DNA of 64,000 nt from Oxynema aestuarii AP17. Lineage in GTDB: Bacteria > Cyanobacteriota > Cyanobacteriia > Cyanobacteriales > Laspinemataceae. Below the pieces are notes generated by a model that saw nothing but the letters and a program-made list of their open reading frames with translations, had not been told where the DNA came from and ran no database searches. The first letter of the stretch is position 1. Every line of letters starts with the position of its first letter. The position numbers and the translations under genes were made by a program. Below, one piece after another: positions 1-22,151 of the stretch. The DNA lies in the NCBI RefSeq assembly GCF_012295525.1, contig NZ_CP051167.1:3951501-4015500 (forward strand), written 5' to 3'.

Positions 1-1481
<1,481 letters not shown>

Positions 1482-1538
1482 ACTTTTGGCTTGTTCTAGG
1501 ATTTTTTTCCCTATGCTTTTCTCTTGGTGTCTATGCTT

Positions 1539-1572
1539 TTTTCAAGGTTCTTTGCTGGGTTTCAATCCAGCA
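1539..1572 (-). promoter_or_regulatory. ITS boxB-boxA antitermination elements
   Basis: Read on the minus strand, the spacer just before 23S contains a stem-loop at 1553-1572 (TGCTGG...CCCAGCA, boxB-like). The sequence GAACCTTGAAAA follows at 1539-1550 and is the usual cyanobacterial boxA. Order and spacing match the Nus-factor antitermination elements known from cyanobacterial 16S-23S spacers. The match is by sequence; function is inferred from the family. Confidence 0.75.
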
Positions 1573-1669
1573 TTCCGTTTCTCTACTCCGGCTCTTTGTT
1601 GCCTTCTAGATGACGGGTGCTGTGTTGAATTCGCTTTGAGCTAACTTAATCTTTGAACTCGATGGTTGG

Positions 1670-1742
1670 TGGAGGTAAGCGGACTCGAACCGCTGGCATC
1701 TGCCTTGCAAAGGCAGCGCTCTACCAACTGAGCTATACCCCC
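1670..1742 (-). tRNA. tRNA-Ala (UGC)
   Basis: This is a 73-nt cloverleaf on the minus strand starting GGGGGTATAGCTC and ending CTTACCTCCA. The T-arm contains GGTTCGAGTCC. The anticodon is TGC, plus-strand gca at 1707-1709, in a CCTTTGCAAGG stem-loop. CCA is not encoded. It lies in the rRNA spacer between tRNA-Ile and 23S, the standard cyanobacterial arrangement. Confidence 0.97.
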
Positions 1743-1754
1743 TCCGGTTCTAGG

Positions 1755-1828
<74 letters not shown>

Positions 1829-1845
1829 TCGCTGCGAACCGCACT

Positions 1846-1860
1846 AAGAGTTTGACAGTC
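1846..1860 (-). other. 3' arm of the 16S rRNA processing stem
   Basis: The 15 nt here are exactly complementary to the leader sequence at 3561-3575. In the transcript GACTGTCAAACTCTT (after 16S) can pair with AAGAGTTTGACAGTC (before 16S). The pair brackets 16S and matches the known RNase III precursor stem of bacterial pre-16S. The complementarity is seen directly; the processing role is inferred. Confidence 0.7.
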
Positions 1861-1959
1861 TTTTTCTGATTTTCCTTCTCTAACCTCGACCGACCTCGGG
1901 ATTCTTTGGTTTTGGGGGGTCTTGATTGCCTCTCCCTTTTCCAAACTTGGGTCTCCCTT

Positions 1960-3447
<1,488 letters not shown>

Positions 3448-3500
3448 TTATCCTCTTCTTTTCAGAAAAGAATTGAAGAGCTGATTTCGCTCTTGTTTTT

Positions 3501-12201: not shown

Positions 12202-12239
12202 CTATGCAAAAACTCAAATCCTATGCAAAAACTCAAATC
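12202..12239 (+). repeat. 19-bp tandem duplication at the lipoprotein start codon
   Basis: The sequence ctatgcaaaaactcaaatc occurs twice head to tail (12202-12220 and 12221-12239). Each copy contains an ATG. Because 19 is not a multiple of three, the first ATG (12204) opens a different frame from the second (12223). Only the second leads into the lipoprotein. Confidence 0.95.
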
Positions 12240-13126: not shown

Positions 13127-14008
13127 ATGCCACAACAGCCAACTCCCGATCGCCCGTCTTCCCGGAACTCTGTTTTATCCAACGTTCTCGGCGGTTTTGG
13201 ATTGATTGCAGGGGCGACTTATCCGGTTCGGGCGATCGCCACCTTCATCCACAATCCCAAATTACGACCGTACGTCTCGATCCCGATCGCGGTCAATGTC
13301 GTGGTCGGGATTGCCTTGTACGTGGGATTATTGCTACCGGGATTAAATGGGATTGACGCGACGATCGCCCGGGTCGGAACGTATTTAGAGGCGTTCGTCG
13401 CCCGTCTACCCGCATGGTTGGGCTTTCTCAACGCGATCGACAATCTTCTAGGCTGGGGATTGCGGCTGGTTTTAGTGGGATTGTTACTCGTGGCGATCGG
13501 CTTGTTGCTGGTTCAATTTGGAGCTATTCTGGGGGCGCCGTGGTACGGGCAACTCTCCGAACAGTTGGAACTGTTACGCAATGGCAAACTCCCGATCGCC
13601 GAACCGATGACCCTCAAGACGATCGCCCGCGATATTTGGCGGGCATTGATGTTTGAAATCAAAAAACTGGTTTTTGCGGCAGGATTCGCCTTAATATTGC
13701 TCTTATTCAATGGAGTTCCTTTAATTGGAACGATCGCCGCCAGTGTGGGAGGAATTGCGATCGCGGCGACGATCGTTTGCTTGGACTTCCTCGACGCCCC
13801 TTTAGAACGGCGCCGCCTGCGTTTTCGCCGAAAATTAGGCATTGTCTTCGGTCACCTTCCGGCGAGTGGGTCGTTTGCGTTGGTCTGTTTGGTGATGATT
13901 AGCATTCCGATGCTCAATTTACTTGCGGTTCCGGTTTGCGTGGCGGCGGGAACGCTGTTTTTTTGCGATCGCGTTTGGCCGAAATTTGGGGAAGAGGTGA
14001 GGGAGTAG
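13127..14008 (+). CDS. EI24 domain-containing membrane protein
   Basis: This 293-aa integral membrane protein has several hydrophobic segments (about 65-90, 120-150, 180-215, 240-270). It also has the loop APWYGQLSEQLE and the PLERRRLRFRRKL region typical of the EI24/CysZ-like family. CysZ is a sulfate transporter in enterobacteria, but the cyanobacterial members are distant and their substrate is unknown. Start ATG at 13127. The gene follows a strong terminator, so it is probably transcribed alone. A short palindrome lies downstream at 14071-14098. Confidence 0.85.
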   Translation: MPQQPTPDRPSSRNSVLSNVLGGFGLIAGATYPVRAIATFIHNPKLRPYVSIPIAVNVVVGIALYVGLLLPGLNGIDATIARVGTYLEAFVARLPAWLGFLNAIDNLLGWGLRLVLVGLLLVAIGLLLVQFGAILGAPWYGQLSEQLELLRNGKLPIAEPMTLKTIARDIWRALMFEIKKLVFAAGFALILLLFNGVPLIGTIAASVGGIAIAATIVCLDFLDAPLERRRLRFRRKLGIVFGHLPASGSFALVCLVMISIPMLNLLAVPVCVAAGTLFFCDRVWPKFGEEVRE

Positions 14009-14070
14009 ATCGAATCGTAAATATAACAATTTAAATATAAATACTTTATGAATACTTTCAATAAAAATGC

Positions 14071-14098
14071 GTAGGGGCGAAACGTTTTTCGTCTCTAC
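14071..14098. repeat. Short palindromic intergenic element
   Basis: GTAGGGGCGAAA-CGT-TTTTCGTCTCTAC forms a near-perfect stem with G-T pairs. Its outer bases GTAGGGGC resemble those of the hairpin at 41694-41735. It may be a degenerate copy of a short cyanobacterial palindromic repeat or a terminator for the EI24 gene. Confidence 0.5.
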
Positions 14099-14285
14099 AA
14101 GATCTACGCATCGTCCAGAAATTCAGTCATCGATAGCAATTACATAAAATTGCGTAGAATAAATATATAAATCACGGACGATCGAGTTCCCCCTCGACGC
14201 CCTCGAAATGGGGACGATCGCCCCCAAAGGTGAGAAATTACGCGACTCCAAAGCCCAATTCTATTATACTTTTATCCGAGCGAAT

Positions 14286-16322
14286 TCAAATGGGATCGGG
14301 TCGAAAAGAGGCGATCGCGTCGGGGGAATCGTCCGCATCTTCAGAATTGAACGTCGAAGCTTCAGAACTGCTCAGTTGCCAGGCAGACGAGCGCGGGATC
14401 GGGCGATTTTTGCGAGTTGAGAGTAAATAAACCATCATGTCCCCTTTTCCCTTAATCCGGATCGGACCGCGCTCCTCGAAATCGTAGGCGTGGCGCAAGC
14501 GTTCGTAAGTGGTCGGCGAGACCTGAATCCGTCCGGGAACGCCGTGAGACTCCATGCGGCTGGCAGTATTGACCGTATCGCCCCAGAGGTCGTAAATAAA
14601 TTTATTGGTGCCGATCACTCCGGCGACGACGGGCCCGGTATGAATACCGATCCGCATGGAAAACGATTCGCGGTCTTGGCTGTCAAACTGTTCGATTTCT
14701 TCGAGCATGGCGATCGCCATTCGGGCGATCGCTTCGGCGTGGTCGGTACGGGGAACGGGTAGCCCGCCGACGACCATATACGCATCGCCAATCGTTTTAA
14801 TTTTTTCCAACCCGTATTCCGAGGCGAGGCGGTCGAAGGCACTGAAAATGCGATTGAGGATTTTGACTAATTCCGGAGGAGAGACCCGGGACGCCAAGCG
14901 GGTAAAGCCGACGATATCGGCAAATAAGACGGTGACTTCCGGAAAACTATCGGCGATCGTATTTTCATTTTGCTTGAGGCGATCGGCGATCGCCTTGGGT
15001 AAAACGTTGAGCAACAAACGCTCGGATTTCGCCTGTTCCGCTTCCAACTGTCGAAACGCCTGCCGTAATTGTTCGGCTTTGAGGGCACGTTCGCGAGCGA
15101 GTCGTTCGATTTGCGCCGTGCGACTCAAGGAAGTCAACAAATAGGTCACCGGGATATGAGTCCAGAGTAAGCCGACAATTAACGTCGCCCAAGAACGCCA
15201 ATGACGACGTTTCGCTTGAAATTCTTCCGTGGGAATGGCGTACACGGACCAATGGCGATTCGCAATTTCAATTTGGCGCCGGGTCACTCCCTGGGTGAGG
15301 GAAATACCGGAAGCAGTGGAGACCGATGCTTCCGATTTCGATACGGTGTCGATGGGACAAGCGATCGTGGTGGCGGTGGATTCGGGGAGTTGGGGAAGGG
15401 TTTCGTAACTGGCTAATAAGGTTTTAGCAGGTTGGGTAGCTGCGGTTCCGGCGGCGGTCTGCACGGTTTCGTCGCACAGGTAGAGGTTGATGAGGCTGAC
15501 GCCGCGATCGGCTCCGGAGACTTCAAAAATATCATTGAGGGTGAACAGTCCGAGGATATAACCTTGGAGGCGATCGTGGCGATCGTCGCCGAGGGCTAAT
15601 CCCGGTTCTTCCTCTACGGGTGCGTACACGGGAACGATCGCCAAGACCCCCTGTTGGGTCTCGCCGTCGGGATTCCACTCCAATTTTCCCGTCACTACCA
15701 TTTCCCCGGTGTGGGCCGCATGATTTAAAGCGACTTGATACAGTGGATGGGAGGTCAGATTAAATCCGAGCGCCCCTTCGTTTCCTGCTTCCGGAACGAT
15801 ATAGTGCAGGGGATAGTACTCGGAGCTGGGTTGGGCGCGTATGTAGTCCCCGGCTAGGTTTTTTTGGTGAATTTCAAAGTTGCGATCGCGGGTGAATTGG
15901 TTGTCGTACTCGAATAGTTCTCGTTCTTCGTCGCCGACCCGAGGAGCCCAAGCTAAGAGTCGAATTGTGGGATGTTCTTTCATCGAACGGTGGACGAATT
16001 GACCAAAAGCTTGCTCTGGCGGAACCCCGGACGCATCAAAGAAATCTCCGAGGGTACGGATGACTTCTAAATCTTCGTCGGCATGTTGTTGGAGCCGTCC
16101 GGCAATGATATCCGATGCACGGTTGAATTCGTAGTCTCGGCGTCTCTGTTCCCAATGCCAGACGAAGATAAAAGCCCCGACTGAGAAGCCAACGCCTACG
16201 ATAAAAATGGCGTTGCATAATAGAGAATGATTTAAGTGAATGCTGGAATCTGATGGTGCTTGAGATAGTAGATGAGTAACCGGACTGAGGTGGTTAACAT
16301 TTCGACCGATTTGGAATAACAC
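14286..16322 (-). CDS. CHASE-domain adenylate cyclase, 5' end displaced by an IS1 insertion
   Basis: This class III nucleotide cyclase makes cAMP. The open frame has 678 codons, but its first 38 or so (16209-16322) are antisense IS1 sequence. Native coding starts at 16208. One membrane helix (IVGVGFSVGAFIFVW) leads to a CHASE-type sensor region (~60-330). A second helix (~370-390) and a coiled coil follow, then the cyclase domain from about 455 to 640. Metal-binding Asp residues are in LFADIVGFT and GDAYMVVGG. The substrate residues Lys (EKIKTIGD) and Asp (YDLWGDTVN) mark adenylate rather than guanylate cyclase. The original start lies at 17012, beyond the IS. Expression from an IS-borne start is possible but unproved. 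Confidence 0.85.
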   Translation of the reverse strand: MLFQIGRNVNHLSPVTHLLSQAPSDSSIHLNHSLLCNAIFIVGVGFSVGAFIFVWHWEQRRRDYEFNRASDIIAGRLQQHADEDLEVIRTLGDFFDASGVPPEQAFGQFVHRSMKEHPTIRLLAWAPRVGDEERELFEYDNQFTRDRNFEIHQKNLAGDYIRAQPSSEYYPLHYIVPEAGNEGALGFNLTSHPLYQVALNHAAHTGEMVVTGKLEWNPDGETQQGVLAIVPVYAPVEEEPGLALGDDRHDRLQGYILGLFTLNDIFEVSGADRGVSLINLYLCDETVQTAAGTAATQPAKTLLASYETLPQLPESTATTIACPIDTVSKSEASVSTASGISLTQGVTRRQIEIANRHWSVYAIPTEEFQAKRRHWRSWATLIVGLLWTHIPVTYLLTSLSRTAQIERLARERALKAEQLRQAFRQLEAEQAKSERLLLNVLPKAIADRLKQNENTIADSFPEVTVLFADIVGFTRLASRVSPPELVKILNRIFSAFDRLASEYGLEKIKTIGDAYMVVGGLPVPRTDHAEAIARMAIAMLEEIEQFDSQDRESFSMRIGIHTGPVVAGVIGTNKFIYDLWGDTVNTASRMESHGVPGRIQVSPTTYERLRHAYDFEERGPIRIKGKGDMMVYLLSTRKNRPIPRSSAWQLSSSEASTFNSEDADDSPDAIASFRPDPI

Positions 16323-16953
16323 AACGTTTTACGATGCAATCGAGCTAAGTAATGGCGTAGTCGGCAGTTCTCCCCTTCAACCCGTGTCATCGCTGTTTTA
16401 CTGACTAGATGATCGGCCTCTTCAATCACACAAGGATATACTGGATAGCCATCAGTGATGTACAGAAAACAAGCCCAGCCCATCACCATCTCCCATAAGG
16501 GTTTAAAAGTCTCTAGGGCGTGGTCTCCCACCACGAACTTGAGGATGCCAGGCTGTTTGGTGTTGACGACCGTCCACAACCAAATCTTGTTTTTTTTGAC
16601 CCACAAAGGTTTCCAGTTCATCCAGTTGAGCCGTTTCAGGGATCTCGTAATTCTCCTCGGGAATCGCTGCCGCCGCTTGGCGCACCCAGTTGATCACACT
16701 ATTATGGTTGATGCCACTCACTCGCTCGATTGCTCTAAAACCCATGCCATTGAGTGACATGCTTACACACAGGGCTTTGACCTCTGGAGTGTAGCCTTGG
16801 TGCGGATTGTCTCGGAACTGGCGACGACAATCTCGGCACAGGTAGCTTTGTTTGCCATTGCGATGACCATTCTTCACTATGTGGTCACTAGCACAATAAG
16901 GACAGTTCATGATGCTTCCCTCAACGCTTCATCATTCTCTATTATGCAACGCC
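16209..16953 (-). mobile_element. IS1-family insertion sequence, complete
   Basis: The element is 745 bp with perfect 23-bp terminal inverted repeats (16209-16231 and 16931-16953, both starting GGCGTTGCATAATAGAG from the outer end). It is flanked by an 8-bp target duplication ataaaaat at 16201-16208 and 16954-16961. It carries one transposase split into two overlapping frames. Intact ends, duplication and reading frames show a recent insertion. Element plus duplication is 753 bp, a multiple of three. Confidence 0.95.
16232..16910 (-). CDS. IS1 family transposase (programmed -1 frameshift, InsA/InsB)
   Basis: The first frame (InsA-like, 16503-16910) has a zinc finger (CPYC...CRDC) and a helix-turn-helix. 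The second (InsB-like, 16232-16621) carries the DDE-type core: FVVGDHALETFKPLW, YITDGYPVYP, then GENCRLRHYLARLHRKT. At about 16596-16603 the minus strand has AAAAAAAAC. A -1 slip there joins ...ETFVGQKK to NKIWLWTVV and gives one protein of about 225 aa. This is the usual control in IS1 elements. Both frames are free of other defects, so the element should be able to move. Confidence 0.92.
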
Positions 16954-17012
16954 ATAAAAATGATGGCAGCAGGGAGGTAACGAATCCAGGGTAAATGGTA
17001 TTTTTCTGGCAT
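16954..17012 (-). pseudogene. Detached native 5' end of the adenylate cyclase gene
   Basis: The minus strand from ATG at 17012 reads MPEKYHLPWIRYLPAAI and then meets the 8-bp target duplication and the IS. Removing the IS and one duplication joins it in frame to IFIVGVGFSVGAFIFVW. This gives a normal Arg/hydrophobic N-terminal membrane anchor. AAGAGG stands 5 bp before the ATG. These 17 codons are therefore the original start of the cyclase at 14286-16208, now separated from it by 745 bp. Confidence 0.9.
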
Positions 17013-17541
17013 AATTGCCTCTTAACAATCGGCTTCCCAGTGGGCCCTTGGCTTTTGTACAGCACTAAAACCCGTGGATTGGGAGATTCTGTTAATGCCA
17101 CCCCGGTCAAATGACTCGACGTTCGAGAACAGATGCAGTTCTTTATTAATTATCTATCACAGCCCCCTGGGTGCCTAAAAATTTGGCTCGCGATCGGGGA
17201 TTGTTCTATGATTTCTGACGCTACTCGGTATTCGGAGGTCTTTCATCAACTATTCACTCAACCCGTGATGTTCCAGGGTTCCTGAGACGCTATCGATACT
17301 CGTGGGTTCGATTTAGATCGGGGAACGGCGTTCGCGCTCATCGTCTCCAAAGGAGAATCGCGCGCTCCAGGAATGGCGGATTCGGGCGCTTGTCGGCGGT
17401 GGCTACAGTCGGAGGATTGCGGCAGGGGTAGGGGTTGAGAAGCGATCGGAGCGCACTGGGGCGGTTTGTGGCTGGCAGGCGGGGTGTGGGTCGAGGGGCG
17501 ATCGCCTCTGGGGGACGAGGCGATCGCCCGTGTAGGAAAGA
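17013..17541. other. Upstream region of the cyclase gene, no gene supported
   Basis: About 530 bp lie between the native cyclase start and the end of hisIE. The region contains a hairpin repeat at 17327-17363 and several HIP1 sites. No open frame with coding character was found on either strand. Confidence 0.5.
17327..17363. repeat. HIP-type hairpin repeat, intergenic copy
   Basis: GGCGTTCGCG...TCTCC-AAA-GGAGA-ATCGCGCG has the same plan as the copies inside the genes at 36734, 36962, 37793 and 38825. The shared plan is an outer TCGCG-type arm, an inner TCTCC/GGAGA stem and a 3-nt loop. Its presence outside genes supports a mobile or spreading repeat. Confidence 0.65.
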
Positions 17542-18201
17542 TTAGCGGCGGCGTTGTTGCAATTTGCGGTAAACGTCGCGCAAATCGACTTGGTGATGGG
17601 CGAGGGCAACCATTGCATGGTAGATCCAGTCGGCGACTTCTCCGGCGATCTGTTCGGGGTCGTCGTCTTTAAACGCCATCACAACTTCGGCGGTTTCTTC
17701 GCCGAGTTTTTTGAGGATTTTGTTATCTCCGGCGGCGAGGAGTTGGGCGGTGTAGGAGCCTTCCGTAGGACGATCGCGGCGATCGCAGATAATTTCAAAG
17801 ACTTGGGAGAGGGTATCGGCGGGAGGGGGCTGGATCTGGCCGTCAATTTGGTGGAAACAGCTTCGTTCTCCGGTGTGACAGGCAATATCGCCGATCTGCT
17901 CGATCCCGACGAGCAAGCAGTCGCTATCGCAGTCGTAGCGCAGCGATCGCACTTTTTGCAAGTGACCGGAGGTGGCGCCTTTATGCCAGAGTTCTTGGCG
18001 GGATCGACTCCAGTACCAGCATTCTCCAGTTTCGAGGGTTTTTTGTAAGGAATCTCGGTTCATCCACGCCATCATCAAAACGGTACCGTCGAGGTAGTCT
18101 TGGGCGATCGCCGGGACGAGTCCTTGGTCGTTATAACGAATGCGATCGAGGGGAATCGATTGTTGCACGGTAGTTAGGGGTTGAGTTGGAAATGCGAACA
18201 T
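17542..18201 (-). CDS. hisIE: Bifunctional phosphoribosyl-AMP cyclohydrolase / phosphoribosyl-ATP pyrophosphatase
   Basis: This 219-aa cytoplasmic protein carries out the second and third steps of histidine synthesis. The HisI half (~1-125) has the zinc-site cysteines in [11 protein letters not shown] and [10 protein letters not shown] and the [11 protein letters not shown] motif. The HisE half (~128-219) has [14 protein letters not shown] and the metal-binding GEVADWIYH. The fusion and length are usual for cyanobacteria. Start ATG at 18201 directly abuts the stop codon of the glycosyltransferase-like gene upstream (18202), so the two may be co-transcribed. Confidence 0.95.
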
Positions 18202-19074
18202 CTAGGTAAATTTTACCGCTTTAATTTTCTCGCTCCACGCCTGTCCGAAATGTTGGATTTCTAAAAAGTTGGCATTGGACGCGGCGGGCTTGTACACTCT
18301 GAAAGTCCGCGCGATTCCCAAGGTCGCCGCACTTTCGAGCGGACCGAAGAAGCGGGAGTCGCCATCGAGAAAGTAGTCCCGGCTCGCCCAATCCGCCATT
18401 TGTCTGTGATTGAGAAAAAAACATCCCGAATGAGGATTTTCGGCACGATTGATGATAATTTGTTGTCCCATTACATTTCCGGCAATGGTTAAATTATCGG
18501 AGAAGTAATGAGCAAAGTTATCTCTTTTACCCGTTTTAAATTCGAGTTCGGGATCGATGTAAATTTTCTTAATTTCTGGATGGTTGACAATTTCAAAGCG
18601 ATTGGGATGCAACACGGCGCGATCGCCGATATAGTGATTGAACCACCCCAGCTTTACGAACCACTCCGGATCGGACAAAATTAGATCGTCTTCTAAATAG
18701 CAATAATAATCGTACTGCCCGAGATGTTCTCGCAACAGTGCATGACATTCAAATCCTACTAACATCGGGTGGCAATTGACCTCGTGATGTTGGTAAGACC
18801 AGGAGGGGATCGGGAGGCGATCGAGTAAATGCAAGCCTTGCGTGGTACAGATAATGACTTGAATGAGAACCGATCGCCCTTGATTGGCAGGTAAAGTATA
18901 AAGGCGATCGCGATATTCAAAACAAAATTGTGCTTTGTGGTTGAACAAACTGTGCAGCGATCGCAAACATTGAGTCAGCGCTTTAATTCTCGGTTGGGGA
19001 TCCGGACTGAGCGATCCATAATTCCCCCCACCATTGGGATCGAAAACATGGGGGATCGTGACTAAAATACGCAT
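18202..19074 (-). CDS. Glycosyltransferase-like protein
   Basis: This 290-aa soluble protein starts MRILVTIPHVFDPNGGGNYG, a Rossmann-like first strand. It has an acidic metal-binding motif in YCYLEDDLILSD (~125), like the DxD of nucleotide-sugar transferases. SGCFFLNHRQM further on resembles the acceptor region of several GT families. I recognise no more specific family. It is followed with no gap by hisIE and is divergent from hemL across a 320-bp region. Function in polysaccharide or protein glycosylation is inferred from the motif only. Confidence 0.6.
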   Translation of the reverse strand: MRILVTIPHVFDPNGGGNYGSLSPDPQPRIKALTQCLRSLHSLFNHKAQFCFEYRDRLYTLPANQGRSVLIQVIICTTQGLHLLDRLPIPSWSYQHHEVNCHPMLVGFECHALLREHLGQYDYYCYLEDDLILSDPEWFVKLGWFNHYIGDRAVLHPNRFEIVNHPEIKKIYIDPELEFKTGKRDNFAHYFSDNLTIAGNVMGQQIIINRAENPHSGCFFLNHRQMADWASRDYFLDGDSRFFGPLESAATLGIARTFRVYKPAASNANFLEIQHFGQAWSEKIKAVKFT

Positions 19075-20794: not shown

Positions 20795-20954
20795 TTGAAT
20801 GCAATCATTGAATGCAATCATTACAAAAGTCAAGTAGCACTAACTTTAACAATGGGAGCGGGAATTCCCCGATTCTACCGAAGGTGAATCGTGGGATGAA
20901 AGCGACTCTTCGGCAAATCAGTGATAATCTTATCATCTGGCTATATTGGCGATA

Positions 20955-22151
20955 ATGTTCAAGGCGTACAAATACCGCATCTATCCAACCCACAAGCAAC
21001 AAGCGACTTTAGCCAAGAGCTTTGGTTGCTGTCGTTGGTATTGGAACTATGCGTTAAATTTGTGCCAAGAGACTTATCGAGCGACCGGAAAAGGTTTATC
21101 AAGGGGTTATCTTCAGGGATTATTACCTGCCCTCAAAAAGGAATACCCTTGGCTTAAAGAAGATGTCTATTCCCAATGCTTGCAAGTCGTGGCGTTGAAC
21201 TTATCAACCGCTTATCGAAACTTCTTTGAGAAACGGGCAAAATTACCCCGATTTAAATCCAAGCAGGGAAGGCAATCTATCAGTTATCCTCAAAATGTTA
21301 AGTTTGAGGGAAATTACATCAAACTGCCTAAAGTTGGGTTAGTGCGTTGTCGTCAGCATCGAAGTTTTGAGGGAAAAATCAAAACTGTAACCCTCTCCAA
21401 AAATCCAGATGGTAAATATTATGTTTCAGTTTTGGTGGAGGGTAGAGAAGAACCTCCCTTTCCCTCAACTGAAGGAAAAGCAATTGGCATTGATTTAGGG
21501 CTGACCGATTTTGCAATTACCAGTGAGGGGTCGAAATATAATAATCCCAAGCATTTTGATAAACACGCGCGAAACCTAAAAAGAAAACAGCAAAAACACG
21601 CTCGAAAAAGGAAAGGTAGCAACAACCGCAATAAATCGCGGGTAAAAGTTGCTAAGATTCACGCCAAAATAAGTCGCTGTCGTGAAGATTTTCTCCACAA
21701 GCTATCCCGTAAGATAGTGAACGAAAACCAAGTGATTGTGGTCGAGAATCTCAACGTCAAAGGCATGGTTCGCAATCACCAACTCGCCAAAGCGATTAGT
21801 GATGTCGGTTGGGGGATGTTTTGTACGATGTTAAAGTACAAGGCTGAATCAGAAGGAAAAGTGTATCTAGAAGTCGATCGATTTTTTCCTTCTTCTAAAA
21901 CTTGCCATGCATGTCTCAATCAAATCAAAAGCTTGTCTCTTGATGTAAGAAGTTGGACTTGCGAACATTGCCAAACTCGTCATGACAGGGATATCAATGC
22001 CGCCATTAATCTCAAAAATGAAGGCTTACGGATATTAGAGTTAGGAACTCGCTCTACTGCCCTTGGAGGGGATGTAAGACGAGGTGGTAGAACTTCAGTT
22101 CTATCTAGCGCAGTCCCCAGTGAAGAGGGAAGCCGCTATTGTAATCTTTGA
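20955..22151 (+). CDS. tnpB: RNA-guided endonuclease TnpB (IS200/IS605-type, OrfB)
   Basis: This 398-aa protein starts at ATG 20955 (MFKAYKYRIYPT, the usual TnpB start); the TTG at 20946 is less likely. It has a helix-turn-helix N-terminal region and a RuvC-like nuclease with all three acidic residues. Counted from the TTG start these are Asp183 (GIDLGLTDFA), Glu267 (VVENLNVKGM) and Asp349 (HDRDINAAINL). The zinc ribbon CHAC...CEHC is intact. TnpB proteins cut DNA guided by an RNA made from the 3' end of their own element. No TnpA transposase is nearby, so this is a stand-alone copy that depends on one elsewhere. It ends one base short of the opposing gene. Confidence 0.93.
   Translation: MFKAYKYRIYPTHKQQATLAKSFGCCRWYWNYALNLCQETYRATGKGLSRGYLQGLLPALKKEYPWLKEDVYSQCLQVVALNLSTAYRNFFEKRAKLPRFKSKQGRQSISYPQNVKFEGNYIKLPKVGLVRCRQHRSFEGKIKTVTLSKNPDGKYYVSVLVEGREEPPFPSTEGKAIGIDLGLTDFAITSEGSKYNNPKHFDKHARNLKRKQQKHARKRKGSNNRNKSRVKVAKIHAKISRCREDFLHKLSRKIVNENQVIVVENLNVKGMVRNHQLAKAISDVGWGMFCTMLKYKAESEGKVYLEVDRFFPSSKTCHACLNQIKSLSLDVRSWTCEHCQTRHDRDINAAINLKNEGLRILELGTRSTALGGDVRRGGRTSVLSSAVPSEEGSRYCNL

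Follow-up and report, generated by a model that had tools for sequence, protein, structure and literature searches.

The locus raises the question of what an insertion sequence does to the gene that it enters. In the 64,000-nucleotide stretch of the Oxynema aestuarii AP17 chromosome analysed in this study (referred to as the window), an IS1-family element lies at the start of a gene for a CHASE-domain class III adenylate cyclase, and an open reading frame runs from the element into the body of the gene. Either the insertion disrupted the gene, or it supplied the receptor with a new N-terminus.

Structure of the insertion and its target site

The sequence was read at 14000-17600 and its features were recomputed (Table 1). 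The element is 745 bp long, its two ends form a perfect inverted repeat of exactly 23 bp, and it is flanked by an 8-bp target-site duplication, ATAAAAAT; the ends, duplication and coordinates proposed in an earlier sequence-only reading of this locus all agreed with the recomputed sequence. Elements of the IS1 family have terminal inverted repeats of about 20-25 bp and target duplications of 8-9 bp, and both the 23-bp ends and the 8-bp duplications found at the two genomic copies fall within these ranges. The proposal that excision rejoins the gene was borne out as well: scripted joining of the flanks after removal of the element plus one duplication (753 bp) gave MPEKYHLPWIRYLPAAIIFIVGVG and a single minus-strand frame from ATG 17012 into the cyclase. 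The insertion point is at codon 20 of the 657 codons of the cyclase gene, inside the first transmembrane helix.

Table 1. Features of the interrupted cyclase locus, in positions of the window
Feature	Position	Strand	Evidence or remark
CHASE-domain class III adenylate cyclase body, codon 20 to stop	14286..16208	-	PF03924, PF00211
Hypothetical chimeric ORF, 678 aa, first 38 residues IS-derived	14286..16322	-	From GTG 16322 inside the IS
Target-site duplication, left copy (ATAAAAAT)	16201..16208	.	Sequence
IS1-family insertion sequence	16209..16953	-	23-bp repeats, identical second genomic copy, IS1 transposase models
insB-like ORF, 129 aa, DDE part of IS1 transposase	16232..16621	-	PF03400, NF033558
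insA-like ORF, 135 aa, N-terminal (zinc-binding) part of IS1 transposase	16503..16910	-	NF033558, NF050000
Target-site duplication, right copy (ATAAAAAT)	16954..16961	.	Sequence
Native 5' end of cyclase gene, codons 1-19 and two bases of codon 20	16954..17012	-	Homologue starts
Stretch GAGGCAATT immediately preceding ATG 17012, possible ribosome-binding site	17013..17021	-	Shine-Dalgarno -5.8 kcal/mol

A second copy, identical over all 745 bp, was found at L041:8054-8798 (G000:C1:1863053-1863797) with its own 8-bp duplication, AGAATTCG; it begins 9 bp after a 166-aa ORF ends and appears to be intergenic. Two identical 745-bp copies with perfect ends and a duplication at each exceed what chance would produce, and the identity of the copies suggests recent movement of the element. 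A DNA search also detected a 62-bp stretch (G000:C1:5701203-5701264) that is 94% identical to the middle of the element and is probably the remnant of an older copy. No further insB match was present in the genome beyond the two copies, and megablast gave no match to the element on plasmids.

The cyclase sequence GGCGTTG (16190-16196, minus strand), 4 nt from the duplication, is identical to seven letters of the IS tip (16209-16215). This motif occurs 19 times on the two strands of the window, compared with 8.9 expected, a count reached in one of 100 shuffles, and three of the 19 sites lie in or beside the insertion; within 20 bp on each side of the site of the second IS copy, it is absent. 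Either chance or the element's choice of target could account for the match.

Elsewhere in the window, a ribosomal RNA operon occupies positions 1-3449 (minus strand) with a 16S gene, two tRNAs and part of a 23S gene, and Rfam at the gathering threshold detected nothing over the window besides these. A 401-aa ORF at 20946-22151 encodes what we take, from its sequence only, to be a TnpB/OrfB protein of IS200/IS605 elements.

Transposase reading frames

The insA-like ORF scored 117.2 bits with NF033558 (cut-off 100), 57.6 bits with NF050000, and 22.5 bits with PF03811, which is under the cut-off of 26.1. The insB-like ORF scored 75 bits with PF03400 (cut-off 24.1) and 115.8 bits with NF033558, so that an IS1-type DDE transposase, as expected for the family, was recognized by PF03400 and, over the cut-off for both ORFs, by NF033558. 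Both transposase ORFs lie on the minus strand, as does the cyclase; the IS-derived part of the fusion had been described as antisense, which was incorrect, and an antisense fusion is ruled out. The element and the interrupted gene are co-directional, and transcripts could therefore run through from one into the other.

In the IS1 family, two overlapping frames are joined by a programmed frameshift, which in Escherichia coli IS1 is a -1 frameshift. The insB frame of the window element, unlike that of E. coli IS1, is +1 (or -2) relative to insA, with the overlap at an A8C run, and slippage on the A run may join the insA and insB parts. The A8 run lies at 16590-16597. When frames were compared at the seven of 16 loci that matched the motif used, one of which (L060) is the genome's own second copy, insB appeared by eye to be +1 (or -2) of insA at an A8-A9 run also in L061, L066, L071 and L055, to be -1 of insA in L064, and to share a single frame with it in L052.

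The interrupted gene

The native frame from ATG 17012 is open for 26 codons and then meets stops at 16934 and 16931; nine stops occur in this frame between 17012 and 14288, the last being the gene's own. The broken frame ends 18 nt before the insA start, ATG 16910. The native start and its upstream region are now separated from 97% of the coding sequence, and the cyclase body, which is open, has no start of its own. The description of the insertion as frame-preserving is therefore misleading, because the multiple of three results from the element's 745 bp plus 8 and the native frame stays open for only 26 codons from ATG 17012. Wherever this element inserts with an 8-bp duplication, the gain is 753 bp, as at the second copy, so that the multiple of three is uninformative about this site. 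Frame preservation as a sign that the insertion is tolerated was rejected on these grounds.

The chimeric ORF matched the CHASE domain (PF03924, 103.3 bits) and the class III cyclase domain (PF00211, 230.5 bits); an HNOBA match was below the cut-off. Hydropathy indicated a hydrophobic stretch on each side of CHASE, and the predicted arrangement is that of a CHASE receptor, with the domain between two predicted transmembrane helices, of which helix 1 is split in the present allele. Six catalytic positions, namely the two metal-binding Asp, the Lys and Asp for the base, and the Asn and Arg, were conserved in all 17 aligned sequences, window included, and the residues of both half-sites are present in the one domain of this cyclase. 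The catalytic domain and these positions identify a putative class III adenylate cyclase, for which cAMP formation is predicted. A phmmer search, in which the query lacked the IS-derived part, retrieved class III adenylate cyclases with solved structures (4p2f, 7yz9, 5o5k; E 8e-63 to 2e-81) and types 5, 8 and 9, all with a catalytic domain as here; in the 60 matches listed, the best-matching stretch lay within query residues 355-608 and none lay in CHASE.

In the whole genome, CHASE gave four matches and the cyclase domain 31, and the two occur together in one open frame only at this locus. The genome encodes seven further cyclase domains with 57-66% identity to this one across the catalytic domain; cAMP synthesis as such therefore need not be lost.

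Homologues in related genomes

Homologues were sought in 59 genomes, namely the organism's own and those of 58 relatives. Among the matches listed, near-full-length ones were found in at least 16 relatives: 12 of the 13 other family members compared (G001-G011 and G013) and four genomes outside the family (G014, G032, G045 and G058). In the remaining family member, G012, the best of the matches listed covers the catalytic domain only, and a contig scan of named genomes gave six loci that matched only the C-terminal catalytic part. Identity to the cyclase was 48-54% over the whole protein, so the nearest comparison is one at family level and not a strain- or species-level empty site.

The gene is uninterrupted in all 16 fetched homologues, whose rebuilt ORFs encode 622-657 aa. 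Stops were flagged inside the matches of G045 (two TAA) and G014 (one TAA), with rebuilt ORFs of 625 and 622 aa. An ATG at the place aligned with 17012, followed by (W/F)xRY(L/I)P, was present in 16 of 16, including G032, the rebuilt ORF of which began six codons later. The sequence GAGGCA stands just before this ATG in nine of the 16, counted by eye, as it does in the window. The native start at ATG 17012, which the sequence-only reading had assumed, was thus confirmed by the aligned ATG; the same reading had singled out the starts of relatives for comparison, and none begins elsewhere. These full-length homologues share with the window gene both the start and the six catalytic positions; the interruption sets the window gene apart from them.

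None of six neighbouring genes (clpC, a lipoprotein-like gene at 12223, a cysZ-like gene, hisIE, 18205-19074 and hemL) had a tblastn match at E 1e-8 in the 16 homologue loci, where 11-20 kb around each homologue were searched and some loci were cut by contig ends. Orthology is consequently judged by full-length similarity alone.

The open frame across the junction

The frame of the chimeric ORF is that of insA continued past its stop, and it contains stops at 16505, 16454, 16424, 16400, 16379 and 16331. The stretch of this frame that enters the cyclase lies beyond the insA stop and all later ones as far as 16331, so the frame is not read by the transposase there. The element can be exited in six phases, and in four of them its end carries an open tail with a start codon (ATG, GTG or TTG): sense tails of 28 and 40 codons, of which the 40-codon tail is the one observed, and antisense tails of 65 and 18 codons. 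The tails in the other two phases (7 and 13 codons) have no start. With four of six phases open and provided with a start, a fusion ORF is the usual outcome of such an insertion and is not beyond chance.

The best 19-residue hydropathy was 2.25 across the fusion junction, compared with 2.60 natively. The suggestion that the hydrophobic stretch at the junction could replace the lost membrane anchor stands insofar as most of helix 1 is kept in frame; it would apply only if the chimera were made.

Translation and transcription signals

No Shine-Dalgarno match was found at GTG 16322 (score 0), compared with -5.8 kcal/mol for the native ATG and -6.1 for insA. A score of 0 was also obtained for 11 of 36 mechanically defined ATG-started ORFs of at least 200 aa in the window, -6.1 was reached by 10% of 1500 random positions, and the value of the native start, which lies within the 10-25% quantile range of those positions, is unexceptional. 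The absent match at GTG 16322 is a weak argument against expression. The next in-frame start is ATG 15983, with no ATG, GTG or TTG between it and GTG 16322; it encodes residue 114 of the chimeric ORF, inside CHASE, and a start there would drop helix 1 and the beginning of CHASE. A restart at the insB stop was considered and rejected, since the interval from GTG 16322 to ATG 15983 holds no in-frame start and the ATG at 16218, in the IS tip, belongs to a different frame.

A promoter scan of 16000-17560 gave four sites, none scoring above the minimum of 9 out of 12, compared with 1.6 +/- 1.2 in shuffled sequence. Only two are on the minus strand, at 17177-17149 and 16969-16941, and the scan found no promoter-like site on that strand within 16940-16000. 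The site at 16969-16941, at the far end of the IS, is a weak hybrid with its -35 element in the host flank and its -10 element in the IS, and a transcript from it would cover insA and insB first. A looser scan for minus-strand -10-like hexamers in the IS body found two, at 16706 and 16222, compared with 2.6 on average in shuffled sequence; the hexamer at 16222 lies past GTG 16322, so any transcript begun there would lack this GTG. That no promoter-like site lies just upstream of GTG 16322 is likewise a weak argument against expression.

Strong RNA structure at the junction was discounted, as the fold is ordinary (z = -0.33). A minus-strand terminator-like site at 16190-16173, just inside the cyclase body, was one of two in total, compared with 1.7 +/- 1.4 in shuffled sequence; being near the shuffle level, such sites were not counted as evidence.

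The proposal that the insertion gives the cyclase a new N-terminus was not upheld, in view of the stops within the IS, the absence of a Shine-Dalgarno match at GTG 16322 and the absence of a promoter-like site just upstream of it. The open frame allows a new N-terminus, which is possible but unsupported beyond chance.

Discussion

The explanation that we favour, with a probability of roughly 0.8, is that a recent IS1-family insertion disrupted the genome's only CHASE-domain adenylate cyclase gene and left an allele that is null or strongly reduced. A recently active element would have transposed into the start of the gene and duplicated 8 bp, and ribosomes that initiate at ATG 17012 would now terminate after 26 codons, at a point 18 nt short of the transposase start, so that production of the full-length receptor cyclase has very probably ceased. 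The cyclase body would still be open because the event is young; with little time for decay, its openness would be no sign of selection. The open downstream frame and the six intact catalytic positions fit a young null allele and an expressed allele equally.

In Microcystis aeruginosa PCC 7806, the IS1-like element ISMae3 (737-bp coding region) resembles the window element as an IS1-family member present in several identical copies inside or beside genes of a cyanobacterium; its copies go together with low expression of genes close by, and gvpV is cited as a gene inactivated by such an insertion (PMC11448079). The effect of ISMae3 is known from RNA data and the window element from its sequence, and the two are likened by description. 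E. coli IS1 is, like the window element, a short DDE element with an insAB' transposase, and PMC12428005 describes how upstream host transcription raises transposase transcription; by analogy, the native cyclase promoter may now feed the transposase. The two elements differ in length (768 bp for E. coli IS1, 745 bp here). PMC2246112, on cyanobacterial insertion sequences, states that the ends of IS1, IS2 and IS5 contain outward promoter hexamers by which neighbours may be activated. Among the titles and abstract openings listed in literature searches, no description of an IS-cyclase chimera in a cyanobacterium was found.

The main alternative is a chimeric receptor, in which the native promoter or one in the IS end, read-through of insA and insB, and a start at GTG 16322 would yield a functional cyclase in which 38 residues come from the IS and the first transmembrane helix is almost whole. 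It draws on the open 678-aa frame, the junction hydropathy (2.25 compared with 2.60 natively), the shared direction of cyclase and transposase, the weak hybrid promoter-like site at 16969-16941 and the record of outward hexamers in IS1 ends (PMC2246112). This reading is nevertheless unlikely, as such an ORF arises by chance in four of six exit phases, the transposase does not use that frame there, all four promoter-like sites (1.6 +/- 1.2 in shuffles) have the minimum score of 9 of 12, IS1-like elements in Microcystis are associated with silencing (PMC11448079), and GTG 16322 has no Shine-Dalgarno match, itself a weak argument. The specific arrangement in which the transposase transcript extends into the cyclase, translation starts at GTG 16322 and the IS supplies a cytoplasmic tip and the first residues of the helix would be a slightly more doubtful proposition still.

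Translation might instead restart internally at ATG 15983 or later, for example at 15701 or 15695, and give a shortened, unregulated or misplaced cyclase that lacks helix 1 and part or most of CHASE. The in-frame codons ATG 15983, ATG 15701 and GTG 15695 are present, and the latter two share a Shine-Dalgarno-like stretch of -5.7 kcal/mol, near the native -5.8; random positions have their 10% and 25% quantiles on either side of this value, no Shine-Dalgarno match was found at ATG 15983, and the membrane anchor that places CHASE outside would probably be lost, which together make an internal restart very improbable. Cyanobacteria often carry several chromosomes per cell and the element, with its identical copies, seems recent, both of which were counted in favour of a mixed population, whereby the assembly represents one state and other chromosomes in the culture lack the insertion; nothing in the assembly points to this, and we consider it the least probable of the explanations.

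An expressed chimera would be a clear example of a membrane receptor whose beginning had been founded anew by a mobile element, and expression of the receptor would depend on that element. Disruption of the cyclase gene by an IS1-family element, the reading preferred here, is a routine and ordinary kind of mutation. For annotation, it means that 14286-16208 is the 3' part of an interrupted gene that begins at 17012, not a gene with a GTG start in the IS. For users of the strain, it means that the only CHASE-type adenylate cyclase of the genome is probably defective.
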